Below, in pieces: positions 5,226 to 31,206 of a stretch of DNA of 64,000 nucleotides. Below the pieces are notes generated by a model that did no database searches, had not been told where the DNA came from, and worked only from the letters and a program-made list of their open reading frames with translations. The position numbers and the translations under genes were made by a program. Position 1 is the first letter of the stretch. Each line of letters begins with the position of its first letter. Location: positions 496,001-560,000 of the forward strand of contig VWND01000075.1 in NCBI GenBank assembly GCA_009599575.1, written 5' to 3'. The stretch comes from Blumeriella jaapii (taxonomy: Eukaryota > Ascomycota > Leotiomycetes > Helotiales > Drepanopezizaceae).

Positions 5226-6842
5226 TCACTCATCTCTCATACTGGCAGCTTTGTCCTCGGGATTGCCCTTCTTCACGAATCTGACCTTCTTCCTCGCAGG
5301 TGGCGGATCCATATTCCCCTTCTCAGCATGGGTGGGACCAGCGCGCTTCTTGTTGGCGGGAGATAATGGCGCAGACGTAGGTGAGCTTTGGTAGGGAGAA
5401 TTGTACGGAGCGTTGGAGGGAGCGTTGTAGGGAGACTTGTAGGGAGCTTTGGAGGGAGCGTTGTAAGGAGACTTGTATGGAGCGTTGGAGGGAGCGTTGG
5501 AGGGAGCGTTGGAGGGAGCGTTGTAAGGAGACTTGTATGGAGCGTTGGAGGGAGCGTTGGAGGGAGCGTTGTAGGGAGACTTGTAGGGAGACTTGTAGGG
5601 AGCGTTGGAGGGAGCGTTGGAGGGAGCGTTGTAGGGAGACTTGTAGGGAGCGTTGGAGGGAGCGTTGGAGGGAGCGTTGTAGGGAGAGTTGTAGGGAGAA
5701 TTGTAGGGAGACTTGTAGGGAGACTTGTAGGGAGCGTTGGAGGGAGCGTTGTAGTTGGGGAGAGTTATAGGGAGACTTGTAGGGAGCGTTGGAGGGAGCG
5801 TTGGAGGGAGCGTTGTAGGGAGACTTGTAGGGAGCGTTGGAGGGAGCGTTGGAGGGAGACATCTTGGTGGCAGGGATTGATGGCGCAGGCTCAAGTGAGC
5901 TGTTGGAGCGAGTCTTGTAGGGAGCTTTCTTGGTGGCAGGAGTTGATGTCGCAGACTCAAGTGAGCTGTTGTAGCGAGTGTTGTAGGGAGCTTTCTTGGT
6001 GGCAGGAGTTGATGTCGCAGACTCAAGTGAGCTGTTGTAGCGAGTCTTGTAGGGAGACATTTTGGTGGCAGGGGTTGATGGCGCAGGCTCAAGTGAGCTG
6101 TTGGAGCGAGTCTTGTAGGGAGCTTTCTTGGTGGCAGGAGTTGATGTCGCAGACCCAAGTGAGCTGTTGTAGCGAGTCTTGTAGGGAGACTTCTTGGTGG
6201 CAGGGGTTGATGCCGCGGACTCAAGTGAGCTGTTGTAGCGAGTGTTGTAGGGAGACTTCTTGGTGGCAGAAGTTGACGTCGCAGACTCAAGTGAGCTGTT
6301 GTAGCGAGTGTTGTAGGGAGACTTCTTGGTGGCAGGGGTTGATGTCACAGGCTCAAGTGAGCTGTTGTAGGGAGAATCGAAGACAGAAGGAGCGGGCAAA
6401 GACATGAGGTACCTCGTAGCAGAGCCAGGAAAGTAGAGGGTCTCGATCTTGTTGTCGATTCGAGGAACGTTGGGCGGCTGAGGCAGAGTGGAAGCAGGAC
6501 GAATGGGAAGCCGAGTTGAAAATATGGACGATACACCTGAAAGAAAGTCAGCCGATCGTACTTTTAGCAAGGAAGTTGAGAGTCGAACACACCTTGTGCA
6601 TCATCTTTGTCCAAGCTGCTTTCTTTGCTGTGCATCGACTTGGCTTCGATCTTCTCGTCATGTTCGATCTCGAGCGTGAGCTCCAGTCTCTGGATCAGCA
6701 TGCGCCTTCTTTTCTCTATCCATTCTCGACCCTTCTTTTGCAGCACCTTGATCTCTGCCTCTTCCTTCTTGAGCCATTCGGCTCGTCGGGCTTTCTTCGC
6801 CCTCTTCTCCTCTTTTCTGGCGTTGTTCGACGTTGTATCCAT
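5226..6842 (-). CDS. repeat-built disordered protein, frame broken
   Basis: Exon 1 (6593-6842) encodes a highly charged coiled-coil-like start, MDTTSNNARKEEKRAKKARR and onward, and a 56-nt intron (GTGTGT donor, TTTCAG acceptor) leads to exon 2. Exon 2 holds eight 22-residue units of the type YNSSLESATSTPATKKSPYN, then about 40 four-residue units (YKSP, YNAP, SNAP). The frame then changes at a CCCC run (5757-5760 on the plus strand). Removing one base restores SPNYNAP and leads to a non-repeated tail with PPPARKKVRFVKK and a stop at 5226, about 519 residues. As given, the frame instead ends at 5323 (487 residues) with an out-of-phase tail. The protein is proline/serine-rich and very likely disordered and nuclear. 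I know of no family. KVRF in the tail resembles an RVxF phosphatase-docking motif; this is inference only. Confidence 0.62.
5395..5860. repeat. 12-bp coding minisatellite, about 40 units
   Basis: On the minus strand the units read TACAAGTCTCCC, TACAACGCTCCC or TCCAACGCTCCC and keep the reading frame apart from one base near 5757-5760. Such arrays change length easily by slippage. Confidence 0.9.
5860..6385. repeat. 66-bp coding tandem repeat, eight units
   Basis: Eight 22-codon units in the same gene, each with the core NSSLE or NSSLG, then STPATKK or STPATKM and a PYNTR or PYKTR end. Units fall into two subtypes (Tyr-Asn-Ser start versus Ser-Asn-Ser start) that alternate in a way that suggests block duplications. 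Confidence 0.9.
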
Positions 6843-16584: not shown

Positions 16585-17489
16585 ATGCTTGCCCAGTTCG
16601 CTATTATCGAAAGCGCCTCGCCAGATATCTTCAGCGAGGCTGCAGATCGCTTCAAAGCCGAAGGCATGATTCACTGTCGAATCCACCGAAAGAAGACCAT
16701 GGGAGAGACGGGCATCACACTCACGACGTAAGCAACGTCTTTATCCATTAATCTGTTTCGGAACAGTCTCTGCAGCTATATGACAACGTGCTATTCCGTG
16801 GATGAATCCTGCTATGATCACTCTCGATTCTATACTAATTATGTTTCTCTTCAGGTTCCAGCGATTCATAGATCTCCCCTACGAACTCAGAAACATCATA
16901 TACCAAAGAGTCATGACTGAAGACCGAGTCATTCGGATTGTTTACCCAGCTAGAGTTCCCACCACCAGCTCTCCGAGCTTCCTTGCAATACTCCGTGTTA
17001 GCAAGCAACTAAACACCGAGGCACGACCCTTCTTCTACTCGCAGAACGTATTCCAAGTTGGCAACGGCAAAGCCTATTCCGGGACTGAGTGCAATCTCCC
17101 GGCGTTCAGGAGATTCCTGTATTACACACCAAATCTGTATCTCAACAAGATTCCTTGGGTCACCGTGGAACCCATGTCCACCAAAGTGCCACAACCTTGC
17201 ATGTTCAGTCTAGACGCCATGGGGAGAGGTGCGGTCCTCCGTGGGTTGTGAGCTGTACGAGAATCTATCAGAGTTGATGATGCTCGTCAACCTTATCAAG
17301 CTCCGTCTGAAAGGGATAAAGAATAACATAACGGTTTTTGACCCTTGGGCAGGCCGGGAACATCATCACATAAACCCGCCTCTTCAACGCCATGTGTTCC
17401 TCGGTCATAGTGCGGACGGAAAGTATAGTCTGTGGTTAGAAGCCTCTTTAAGTAGGTGGACCGCGAAATCCATACACCCTGGTCTCTGA
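16585..17489 (+). CDS. 2EXR-domain protein, frame broken
   Basis: Exon 1 (16585-16727) and exon 2 (from 16855) join across a 127-nt intron (GTAAGC donor, TTCAG acceptor). Exon 2 opens with FQRFIDLPYELRNIIYQRVM, the F-box-like LPxElRxxIY start of the 2EXR family, with LRVSKQLNTEARPFFYSQNV, typical of these large fungal families of unknown function. The frame ends at 17251 as given. Removing one G from the GGGG run at 17221-17224 continues into GEVRSSVGCELYENLSELMM and an Ile/Leu-rich region to a stop at 17489, about 258 residues. The second reading has leucine spacing expected for this family, so a one-base error is likely. A true pseudogene is possible because such families decay often. Confidence 0.68.
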
Positions 17490-18007: not shown

Positions 18008-20675
18008 TCAAAACAAGCCCAGCAGAACCACCACCACCCCGGCAAAGATCCCCGAATCAACCCTCCGATTCTCCAACGCGCCCCCAACCGACGGCAGCGG
18101 CTTGCTCGTCCCCGCGGCGGTAGATCCGCCCCCGTCTGTACTTGCAGCCCCTTCAGGAATTAGAGGCGACTTGACATTCGTGATGGGGACTACAGGCACC
18201 GTGCTGCTCGGCAAGACCCAATTGCAAGTGACGCCCACGGCACAAGCCGTCGGGCCCTCGCTTCCGGTCCATTGCGTGGTCTGGCCGCTACACACGCAGC
18301 TCGTGGGGCAGCTGGTGGGGGTTTGCGTGCCGCCGGGCAGTACGCAGGAGCAGCTCTCGCCGTCGGAACATGGGAGCGGGCCTTCGGTGCCGGTCCACTT
18401 TGCAGGTGGCTATTAGCTAATGCGAGAATAAACAACGCAGAAAGAAGCGGGGTGGTATGGCTTACAGTGGATGTCTGTCCGGTGCATATTTTCCGGTGGG
18501 GACAGGATGTGAGTGTTGAGAGCGCCGTTATGGTTTTGGTCTTGATACCGCCGGGAAGAACGCACGAACAAGTCTTGTGCGCGGAACAGGGGAGCGGCCC
18601 TTCTGAGCCTGTCCACTAATCGGCTTTTAGCCTCTACACATGAATGTTGGATAAAGACTTACGATTGAGGTCTGCCCTGTACAGGTTGCTTGGTGGGGGC
18701 AAGATGTGAGAGTTGAGATGACCGTGGTCTCGATAGTGACCACTTTGTGACTTGTGAAATTACTCGAGCTTGCTAGAGCCTTTGAGAATGAACTTCTCGG
18801 GGCGCAGGCTTTGGTCGTGGCAGTGGCAGTGAAAGTACCAATGAGAGTAGAGTTCAACTCTGCAGTGATGGAGGGAAACAATTGGGAGTTGGTGATCATT
18901 GCTTCCAGTCCAGATGTAGTCTCAGAGACTATCGGGATGTCCTCGGTATATGAAGGAAAGTCTAAAGATATCACGTCTCCGGTTGTTGTCTGTCCTTCAG
19001 GGCCACCGACATTGCTACTTTTGTCGATTGAAATAATTGGTATGGAGGAAGACAATGTGGCTAGAGCACCGGAAGTCATTGAGTCAAAATCTGTGGGAGT
19101 GATCTCGGAAATCGTCGTCACATAGGTAGCTGTTGATTCCGATGCCGTGGCTGAAGAGTCTGTAATGAATCAGAAGTCATCCGTGAAAGGTGGGAAATCG
19201 AGAGTATAGACGTCACCTGTGGCTGTCAATCCCTCTCCGCCACCGCTGCTCCCAATGCTACTAGGTACTGACGAAGAAGAGGAAATAATAGCTGTTGTTT
19301 GCGAAAGCGTGAGACCGGCTGCTGAAGATGACGAGATTGTCACGCCGGGCTGAGACAGGCCCGAAAGACTCAGACTGGGAATTTGGAAACTCTTAGTCTC
19401 GGAAAATATAGCTTGAGTGGTCGTGGACGTGCGAAGACTGGGGGATTGAGAGCTGGAAGTCTGAGAACTATACAACGGAATGCTAGCAGTTAGAGAGCCA
19501 GACTGAGGACTTGAAGTTCGAGAACCTGCGTTCTGAGAGCTTGCAGTCTGAGACTCTGCAACCTGCGAGGTCACGGGTCCGGAGGCAGTTGTCTGAGAAC
19601 TGGACTCCAAGCCCCCAGGAGACAGGACACTTGAGCCTCCGGAGCCGGGAGTGGGATTGGGAGAGCCAGGAACTGTGGAAACAGTATTCGGAGAGTTGGG
19701 GCTCTCTTGACTTGAGGATCGAGGGCTGGAATTTGATTTTATAAGCTGGAAGCTTGTATCCTCGACACGCAAAAGTTCGAGAGAAAAAATTTACAAGGCA
19801 TGAGGGAGCAAACATAGAACTGATCAAACAATAACATCGTCAGAATAACGGGGAACTTACCTGGCAATTACTGACACTGTGCTAGCAGATGCCGAGACCA
19901 GATCCGTGGGAGTTGGAGGACCAGTAGGTGGAGTCGAGCTATCTAGGACAGTAGAGCTTGACGATGGTCCTGGACAGACAGGAATAGTGACGCTGTTCGC
20001 GCTCAGCGTGACCGCCTCTGTGAGCCCTATAGCTCGTCCATTCAACACGACGTTGGTGTTCAAAGTCACGGCAGCCTGAGCAAGTATAGTCCCAATGAAA
20101 GAGCTCCCGACGCCAAGGGTGGCCGAAGATCCAACGGCCCAGTACACGTTGCACGCGCTTCCACCGGCGCCGGCGAATGTCACTGATCCGGCAACGGTCA
20201 GGGACGATCCGATCTGAAAGTACCAGGCATCGCTTCGGGATCCGGTCCCGACGAGGAACAAGTCCCCGGTCAATCCGGCCGTACTGTCGAAACTGTATGT
20301 GCCGGGAGGCAGGAAATTCCCCCCGAGATCGGTCCCGGTCCTGTCTACGCTTTGGCTAAAACTATTGATCGTGGTAAAGGCAGCCGTGGCATCATAGAAT
20401 GCCGTCGTGGTCTGGCCGCCGAAGAATATACCGCCGGTGACCGTCAAGGTTTCTTGTCCTGTGATGCTGGTTCCGCCTGTGCCAAGAGCGCCGACAATCA
20501 ACGTTCTCCCGGTGTTGGTGACTGCTGGTCCGCCTAGAACACCATATTTACTCGCTGCCCCCAGGTTGATCTGTATGTGTTAGCCTCTAGAAACGTTTGT
20601 TGCAGTGGTAGATCACACTTGTGCGGAGCTGAGGGCAGACAAGCCGAAGACGCAAAGGGTACTGAAAACTTTCAT
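18008..20675 (-). CDS. GPI-anchored ice-binding (DUF3494) surface protein
   Basis: Five exons: 20619-20675, 19861-20570, 18663-19725, 18466-18615 and 18008-18397, about 789 residues with phase-consistent splices. Order: signal peptide (MKVFSTLCVFGLSALSSA); a DUF3494 ice-binding beta-solenoid (INLGAASKYGVLGGPAVTN to LSANSVTIPVCPG); a long Ser/Thr-rich stalk; three cysteine-rich modules around WTGSEGPLPCS or WTGTEGPLPCS and CSCVLPGG; and a hydrophobic tail (SGIFAGVVVVLLGLF) typical of a GPI signal. DUF3494 domains bind ice in bacteria and some fungi. The layout suggests a cell-wall protein exposing that domain. An in-frame TGA (19170-19172) interrupts exon 3; a 57-nt in-frame intron at 19160-19216 (GTGACG donor, TTACAG acceptor) would remove it, otherwise it is a nonsense codon. 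The domain call is strong; an ice-related role is inferred. Confidence 0.85.
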
Positions 20676-28915: not shown

Positions 28916-31206
28916 ATGTTTTGGTTGTGGACATTCATTCTTACCTCACTCGTGATACCCTCTGTACTGGCCGCAGACCATCCATGGCAGACCCAATTCC
29001 ATGCCGTGGGCGAGGACTGGCACAAGTATGTGCGGGCTCCCCCGCGGGAGATTGTACGACCTGCCCGCGTGCTCGGGTCGTATACATATGGCGACGTTAT
29101 CAATCCGGATGGCTTGATCACCGGCACGGCATCGACCATTCTGACGAGGATACCGAAGGACGCGACCGCGGCCGGGGCCTCAGACGTGACACCGTCGATC
29201 GTCGTCGACTGGGGCCAGAACATGGCCGGAATCGTCTCCATTGAATTCGGAGGTTCGCTCAACACGACTACAGGGCGGCCCGGTATCAGATTGGCATTCT
29301 CAGAAACGCTGCAGTTCCTGAGCAATGTGAGCGACTTTTCGCGATCGGATAATGTAAACAAGCGAATGCCGCTACATCCGAGCACAGTGCTGACACAGGC
29401 AGGGAGAAACCATCGATGATCACATCACGCCAGGAAGCGACCAGGTAAGAAAGAACACAACCAACCCATTAAGATATTTCATATTCGACAGAAACTAACA
29501 CCTGACAGATTGCCGTGCGCCCAGCTCCTTACACATGGACGAACACCCACGGCTGTGAATTTGGCGACCGCGTCTGTGCAGATGGTCTCCACGGGTTCCG
29601 ATACATGAAGATCTCTCTGGATGCTCTCCCCGCGGATGCACCTTACACGTCGTCCTATGGACAGGTCTCCATCACTTCCGTGAGCCTGGACTTCAGCGGT
29701 TTTCGTGGCACCCCCGAGACCTTCACCGGCTGGTTCGAGAGCTCGGACGAGCAGCTCAACCAGTGGTGGTATGACGGGGTCTACACGAATGACATGTGTA
29801 CCGACACGTTTCGAGCGAACGATACCGATCCTCGGCAGGCAGGGAGCTCGACGCTGATTGGGAAGCTGGTCCTTCACGATGGCGCGAAACGAGATCGGGA
29901 TCCATATGTTGGAGATCTTGCCGTTGCCTCAAGGACCTCCTATCTCAGCCACGACACTGCGGCGGCGACGAGGAACGTCCTGGCCGATATTGCGGATCAC
30001 CAACGAGCCGATGGCTGGCTTCCACCCGCAAGCATCAGAAACTACACGCTCCCGCTCTACGACTATCCCCTGTGGTGGGTCGTCTGTAGTTACGACCTCT
30101 TCATGTATACCGGTGACACGGCATACGTTACGAAGTACTACCCTCACCTCCGCAGAGTGCTCGACACATTCTACCCATCCACCACCAATCTCACGACCGG
30201 GCTCCTGAGCAAAGGCATTGGCGTCTCAGAGGGTTACGGCGACTACGCTTTCCTCCCTCGCTCGGGGACCATCACCTACTACAACGCCCTGTACGTGCTG
30301 GCCCTCGACCACGCGGCCTCCATCGCCCTCTCTCTCGGCCACGAAGCAGACTACGCGCGCTGGTTCTCGCGCGCGCGCACCGTCTCCAAGGCCATGGACC
30401 AGCTCTTCGACGCCTCCAGCGGCGCTTTCTACGACGGTGGCATCTGCAACGGCACCTTCTGCCCCACGCACGCCCAAGACGGCAACAGCCTCAGCATCCT
30501 CGCGGGCGCCACGAACACCACTCGCGCCAGATCGATCCTCGGCCACCTCTCAAGCCAGCACGCGCGCCCCTACGGCAACGCCTTCTACGACAACGACGTG
30601 CTGGGCCCCTTCTCGCAGCGCGTCTACGCCTTCATCTCCTACTTCGAGATCGCCGCGCGCTTCCGCACGGGTCTGGCCGTCTCCGCGCTCGAGGAGATCC
30701 GGCGCCTGTACGGCTGGATGAGCACGCACGACCCGGGCGTCACGACGTGGGAGGGCATCGGCCCCGGCGGCGTGCCGTTCGAGGACGGCTTCACCTCCCT
30801 GGCGCACGGCTGGGCCACGGGCATCGTGCCCGCGCTGACGAACTACGTGCTCGGCGTCGAGCCGACGGGGCCGGGCTTCTCCTCGTGGGCTGTGCGGCCG
30901 GTCCCAGGCGACGTGCGCTGGGCCAAGGGCGTGGTGCCCACCCCGAGGGGCCCGATCGAGGTCTCCTGGAATGGCAGCGCGAATGGCCTGTTCTCCCTGC
31001 GGGTGACGGCGCCGGTGGGCACGCGCGGCGTTGTGAGCGTGCCGCGAGGGGCTGGTAGGCGGCTGTATGTCAACTCGCAACTCGTCGTGCAGGCGGCGAG
31101 CGATGATGGCTATGTGAATGTGGCGGTTGACGGGGGCGAGACGCATACGGTTCTACAGTTGGATTCCGCTTTGGATATAACGATGATCGATCGATCAAAT
31201 GCATGA
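28916..31206 (+). CDS. secreted GH78 alpha-L-rhamnosidase
   Basis: Exons 28916-29353, 29403-29444 and 29509-31206 give 725 residues. The first 20 residues (MFWLWTFILTSLVIPSVLAA) are a signal peptide, and the start was chosen as the ATG directly before them. The body follows the fungal GH78 pattern: DWGQNMAGIVSIEFGG in an N-terminal beta domain, a six-hairpin barrel with WWYDGVYTNDMCTDTF, KRDRDPYVGDLAVASRTSYL and YPLWWVVCSYDLFMYTGDTA, and a C-terminal beta domain. GH78 enzymes remove terminal L-rhamnose from plant glycosides, rhamnogalacturonan or glycolipids. The middle exon has only 14 codons; using the second of two nearby acceptors (29402) gives SDNGETIDDHITPGSDQIAV, which fits the family, while the first runs into a stop. 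The gene is GC-rich compared with its flanks. Confidence 0.92.

Follow-up and report, generated by a model that had tools for sequence, protein, structure and literature searches.

A DUF3494 ice-binding domain on a Ser/Thr stalk with cysteine modules in Blumeriella jaapii and other Helotiales

Blumeriella jaapii is a leaf-spot fungus. In a 64,000-nucleotide (nt) stretch of its genome (contig VWND01000075.1 of assembly GCA_009599575.1, positions 496,001 to 560,000; hereafter the window) we analysed a gene at 18008..20675, on the minus strand like all of its parts described below, whose order of DUF3494 solenoid, Ser/Thr stalk, three cysteine modules and hydrophobic C-terminus is conserved in other Helotiales. 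The gene family is real and conserved, a further form of the known DUF3494 kind. From its sequence, the family would encode a surface-tethered ice-binding protein, a reading to which we give a probability of about 0.58; tethering and ice binding are what we infer, as is the working state of the B. jaapii copy. The original prediction, made from the sequence of this locus alone, described a five-exon gene for such a protein. Its coordinates, domains and module introns held, and so did its reading of a true DUF3494 solenoid, a stalk and a GPI-like tail, with the same order found again in relatives; the five-exon open frame did not, and the design is not unique to this genome.

Ice-binding domain, stalk and C-terminal tail

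The ice-binding domain (19974..20570) occupies the first 199 residues of exon 2 and matches PF11999 at 131.2 bits against a curated cut-off of 28.7, covering profile positions 1–208 of 208. No second PF11999 match was found in the genome (47,372,573 bases, 91 contigs). The domain had originally been called a DUF3494 beta-solenoid, with structure prediction proposed as a check; besides the profile score, the predicted model is an irregular beta-solenoid flanked by a long helix. The motif SSATLG is identical to that of AnpIBP, the DUF3494 protein of Antarctomyces psychrotrophicus, where it covers the ice-face residues Ser153 and Thr156, and the window domain has Thr at 5/6 column-4 positions, the register of strand 3 being set by hand. 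Across the fungal rows of our alignment, Thr on the ice face is kept in 14/15 for strand 1, 11/16 for strand 3, 16/16 for strand 4 and 15/16 for each of strands 5 and 6. The residues of the ice-binding face are retained in the solenoid of the window.

The gene runs from a first ATG at 20675 to a last stop at 18010-18008, exactly as first proposed. Exon 1 (20619..20675) encodes a hydrophobic leader of 19 residues, MKVFSTLCVFGLSALSSAQ, which resembles a signal peptide, as had been suggested, and similar leaders start the related proteins P0003, P0121 and P0241. It is followed by intron 1 (20571..20618; 48 nt, phase 0), exon 2 (19861..20570), which also holds the beginning of the stalk, and intron 2 (19726..19860; 135 nt, phase 2). 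The five-exon model continues with exon 3 (18663..19725), carrying the stalk and the first half of module unit 1 together with an in-frame TGA, then intron 3 (18616..18662; 47 nt, phase 0), exon 4 (18466..18615), intron 4 (18398..18465; 68 nt, phase 0) and exon 5 (18008..18397). Introns 1–4 of this model are all GT-AG with G at position +5.

The long Ser/Thr stalk of the original prediction is borne out by 84 Ser and 50 Thr among 322 residues, as counted in a six-exon model (see below). It contains a repeat in two copies, at 19173..19244 (GGGEGLTATGDVYTLDFPPFTDDF) and 18936..19007 (GGPEGQTTTGDVISLDFPSYTEDI), and units that resemble it by eye are present in the Rhexocercosporidium and Drepanopeziza proteins. 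The C-terminus (18011..18085; GGALENRRVDSGIFAGVVVVLLGLF) is hydrophobic with no charged residue after it, in agreement with the glycosylphosphatidylinositol (GPI)-type tail proposed from the sequence. A hydrophobic end was seen in all six full-length proteins (window, P0001, P0002, P0006, P0241 and P0242), and GGA or AGA lies 21–22 residues from the end in five of them (all except P0006). Such a tail fits a GPI signal.

Relatives in the Helotiales

Of 7987 candidates scored in a search with the full-length protein, 246 matched at E<=0.001, and the fungal-named proteins among the matches listed (120 of 246) were P0001, P0002, P0003, P0006 and P0007. The complete set of ice domain, stalk, three units and hydrophobic tail was found in Drepanopeziza brunnea (P0241), Diplocarpon coronariae (P0001) and Rhexocercosporidium (P0002); the frame of P0241 is open in the database. 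Module units are partly lost or degenerate in Cadophora sp. M221 (P0242) and C. gregata (P0006), while in the Leptodontidium protein P0121, whose model ends early, the ice domain is accompanied by two units. All module-bearing relatives belong to the Helotiales, so that the domain order, proposed as a search target in other fungi, is that of a conserved gene family and not peculiar to this genome. There was no sign of the module in six further models (P0122–P0127, P0126 being marked partial), which came from a search that admitted only proteins of about 130–413 residues.

When the module region was used as the query (residues 583–712), six proteins were retrieved at E<=0.001 among 178 candidates, two of them (P0001 and P0003) from one species, and 6/6 carried PF11999. 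This search admits only proteins of about 424–1347 residues that share exact words with the query, and the exclusive occurrence of the modules with DUF3494 therefore holds within that range only.

For the phylogeny we used 69 of 241 cut domains, 16 of which were taken beforehand as fungal, the other 53 being sampled. The fungal rows comprised 12 named Helotiales including the window, P0124, and three proteins assigned by sequence likeness (P0128, P0129 and P0133); the further D. coronariae models P0003 and P0007 were left out of the trees and no basidiomycete was knowingly included. P0124 (308 amino acids), labelled as a deltaproteobacterial metagenome-assembled genome, is nearly identical to P0122 of Cadophora malorum and was for this reason treated as fungal; it is probably, judging from the sequence, fungal contamination in a metagenome bin. 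The 16 fungal rows formed one branch (100/99), within which the window domain grouped with Drepanopeziza and Diplocarpon (99/88), genera of the same family as B. jaapii, on a long branch. This long branch stands although the modules of the window are no less similar to those of Rhexocercosporidium than the modules of its relatives are. With AnpIBP added to the tree, a common origin with the Helotiales domain was neither shown nor rejected (approximately unbiased test, p-AU 0.558).

Cysteine modules and their likeness to CBM1

The three WTG modules of the original prediction are present, but the repeat unit is longer and extends upstream, consisting of a first half TSCP....C.GQT and a second half WTG..GP..C.....C..VLP. 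In unit 1 these halves lie at 18663..18725 and 18547..18615, in unit 2 at 18466..18528 and 18329..18397, and in unit 3 at 18272..18328 and 18203..18271, the last WTG half being by eye the most similar to CBM1 (GPTACAVGVTC). Introns 3 and 4 are, as had been noted, both of phase 0 and placed immediately before WTG, where they split units 1 and 2; the halves of unit 3 have no intron between them. DNA identity between the WTG half of unit 1 and that of unit 2 is 75%; the WTG half of unit 3 shares 55% with the former and 65% with the latter. The proposal that module and intron duplicated together keeps the shared position and phase in its favour but finds no detectable sequence similarity between introns 3 and 4 (a fraction of 0.404 of 500 shuffles scored equally high, against 0.002 in the same test for introns 1 and 3, whose places are not comparable). 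Joint duplication is hence plausible from intron position and phase. The D. coronariae models P0007 and P0003 depart from the module sequence of P0001 right after TSV and TSA, which suggests that the introns of this species lie at the same places.

A search of the B. jaapii genome for a further module gene found none. Two candidate loci, L005 (E 0.024) and L006 (E 0.376), were rejected for their unconvincing translations, and a third, L004 (E 0.006), proved to be the first half of unit 1 in the same gene.

The modules share with the fungal CBM1 (PF00734) a core of GQ..W-T-G..GP..C-x5-C, but they have extra residues between these landmarks and additional Cys on either side, and whereas the C-x5-C core is present, the last Cys of CBM1 and its YYSQC aromatics are absent. 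A module alignment of 16 rows was built, omitting those P0242 and P0121 units in which the first half is missing, and the degenerate P0006 unit. Searched against the PDB, its profile found eight sequences at E<=10, of which the top six were CBM1 chains of cellobiohydrolase I (E 0.048–0.26), close variants of one domain and not independent matches. In a row-by-row Pfam scan, CBM_1 was matched by 4/16 rows at E<=10 (best 0.024), and Alg17C_C, an alginate-lyase C-terminal family, by equally many (best 0.046). A plain Pfam scan of two module open frames gave no match to CBM_1 at E<=1, and the module was absent from the 15 CBM1 matches in the same genome at E<=10. Aligned by hhalign with CBM1 sequences from eight of the ten own-genome loci (L034 and L036 were omitted), the modules scored 19.4 (probability 33%; E 4.7e-4 for one comparison). 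The maximum over 150 free shuffles was 19.21, one of which reached the same hhalign probability, and over 150 shuffles with fixed Cys it was 17.68. As the idea of a CBM1 likeness had been formed by eye ahead of these profile searches, they are not a blind test of it. On this sequence evidence the modules appear CBM1-like rather than CBM1, and seem either to be distantly related to that domain or to mimic it.

In-frame TGA, rival readings and known systems

The five-exon gene as predicted has no open frame, since a TGA stands in frame at 19170..19172, within the stalk exon (19725-18663) and after residue 440 of that reading. A candidate intron of 57 nt (19160..19216; phase 1, GTGACG...CTGAT...ACAG) would remove it, and excision keeps the frame and gives six exons with an open frame of 770 amino acids; only with this segment spliced out does the frame of the GPI-type protein reach its tail. 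We counted donors in 264 kb of the same genome, as GT followed 44–76 nt on by a branch-plus-acceptor pattern. As a class, donors were in excess only with G at +5 (216 seen against 177.5 expected); those with C at +5 were not (177 against 176.5), nor was GTGACG itself (4 against 4.3). The count is noisy (GTCACT, 8 seen and 1.7 expected, and GTTGAC, 9 and 3.3, neither with G at +5) and the DNA used for it includes the candidate segment. It took the place of two ab initio intron models trained on the 264 kb, which were discarded for their meaningless consensus sites.

The candidate intron also overlaps the first copy of the stalk repeat. Between the two copies, compared over 24 codons, 15/27 differences fall at third positions and 9/15 shared residues use different codons, and within the 14 codons lying wholly in 19216-19160 third positions hold 10/17 differences, a mark of coding evolution across the segment. 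Together with the lack of excess in its donor class, this speaks against an ordinary intron. Downstream of the TGA, the modules are 79% identical to those of Rhexocercosporidium (Diplocarpon 75% and Drepanopeziza 77% in the same comparison), and 348 residues remain in frame with GT-AG introns, which argues against an old loss but not against a recent one. The TGA must either be an assembly error or a very recent loss, or else be bypassed by readthrough or by splicing at a weak site, and we prefer none of these.

Several observations weigh against a working, tethered ice-binding protein. Besides the TGA at 19172-19170, the proteins of the relatives are gene models, and the modules have no confident predicted structure: in the full-length prediction for P0241 the modules and stalk are mostly at a predicted local distance difference test (pLDDT) score below 50, and only the ice domain and short terminal helices are resolved. 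The end branch of the window ice domain (0.84) is the longest among the 16 fungal rows and may reflect relaxed constraint. In the four proteins that have the full set of units, similarity is higher between modules than between ice domains for 6/6 pairs. Extended to the 21 pairs that seven proteins form, the comparison shows the modules as the more conserved part in 12, a tie in 1 and the ice domain ahead in 8, so the pattern fails on the Cadophora, Leptodontidium and Rhexocercosporidium side.

The alternatives to tethering overlap, and our estimates for them are not intended to sum to one. If the TGA is used, the product would be a secreted ice-binding domain with about 220 stalk residues (222 beyond the ice domain, to be exact), lacking modules and anchor, and the downstream part would be a very recent relic. 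We regard this as rather unlikely; the unremarkable donor class and the long branch of the ice domain favour it, while the preserved module identity and the intact frame downstream count only against a loss of older date. A smaller chance is given to a hydrophobic tail that is not a GPI signal, leaving a secreted protein whose modules are free cysteine-rich domains: the tail is short, with about 14–15 hydrophobic residues and two Arg just upstream, but the hydrophobic ends of all the full-length proteins, and the GGA or AGA in all but one, speak against it.

We consider no more probable than that an adhesin for plant surfaces or litter, in which the CBM1-like modules would bind cellulose or chitin and DUF3494 would be a spacer or a binder of something other than ice. 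The leading PDB matches of the module profile (non-independent as they are), the rows matching CBM_1 (Alg17C_C doing likewise) and a profile score above all 150 Cys-fixed shuffles are in line with this proposal; the empty plain Pfam scan, the missing Cys and aromatics, the Thr kept on the ice face across the fungal rows and the position of the modules at the anchor end rather than the exposed tip are not.

Under the favoured reading of a surface-tethered ice-binding protein, the leader would direct the protein into the secretory path and the C-terminal tail would be exchanged for a GPI anchor. The modules would then form the base within the wall or upon it, where their CBM1-like core might let them grip polysaccharide, and an O-glycosylated stalk would carry the ice-binding face outward. 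Ice fronts might there be pinned on the surface of hyphae or spores, which would limit both recrystallisation and the growth of ice into the cell while the fungus is frozen in fallen leaves. Ascospores of B. jaapii form in apothecia on overwintered fallen leaves (PMC8621041). A bolder version, which we think improbable, is that leaf-inhabiting Helotiales evolved a wall-anchored ice adhesin with a CBM1-derived base on polysaccharide of their own wall or on plant cellulose and a distal DUF3494 head on ice, controlling surface ice in the frozen leaf.

Elsewhere in the window, the adjoining open frame at 16784-17251 (+) has a 2EXR domain (PF20150, E 3.8e-06). Other matches were UbiA prenyltransferase (PF01040, 13396-14427, minus strand), alpha-L-rhamnosidase domains (PF17389 and PF17390) in an open frame of 566 residues (29506-31203, plus strand), the N-terminal domain of glyoxal oxidase (PF07250, 33114-33782, minus), the Rif1 N-terminal domain (PF12231, 40510-43644, plus) and Ric8 (PF10165, 49469-50695, minus). 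Both strands of 5229-6600 have long open frames of simple repeated residues; this stretch may be a tandem repeat rather than a gene.

The fungal DUF3494 proteins characterised so far are treated as secreted, and Typhula TisAFP and the yeast LeIBP are single-domain proteins. The Marinomonas primoryensis ice adhesin is of RTX type with a different ice-binding fold. It shares with our protein the idea of a cell-anchored ice-binding domain but is bacterial and of 1.5 MDa. TisAFP and LeIBP (PDB 3vn3 and 3uyu) have the DUF3494 fold too but are more distant in sequence. The solved chain of AnpIBP (PDB 7bwx/7bwy) has no stalk, modules or anchor, and PMC7277481 describes microbial ice-binding proteins as secreted. 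The literature search, in which subscription journals were thinly covered, showed among the papers listed no GPI-anchored or wall-bound fungal DUF3494 protein, in keeping with the earlier view that such a system has not been described in fungi. Partner domains of adhesion type have been described for bacterial DUF3494 proteins (PMC9957290), and we saw PEP-CTERM (PF07589) and autotransporter (PF03797) domains in bacterial multi-domain relatives; these likewise have the ice-binding domain bound to the cell surface or matrix but use other partner or anchor domains, and the module-region search retrieved none that carries the WTG module. AnIBP of the glacier alga Ancylonema joins DUF3494 to a DPH/root-cap domain (PMC10796529), again a lineage-specific eukaryotic domain fused behind DUF3494, though a different one.

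The fungal case joins these bacterial and algal cases of DUF3494 with extra domains, and its modules have so far been found on no protein without DUF3494 in the range of about 424–1347 residues searched. If the tethered form is true, some temperate plant-associated fungi would manage ice at their own surface, and the tethered DUF3494 form would offer a handle on overwintering in leaf litter.
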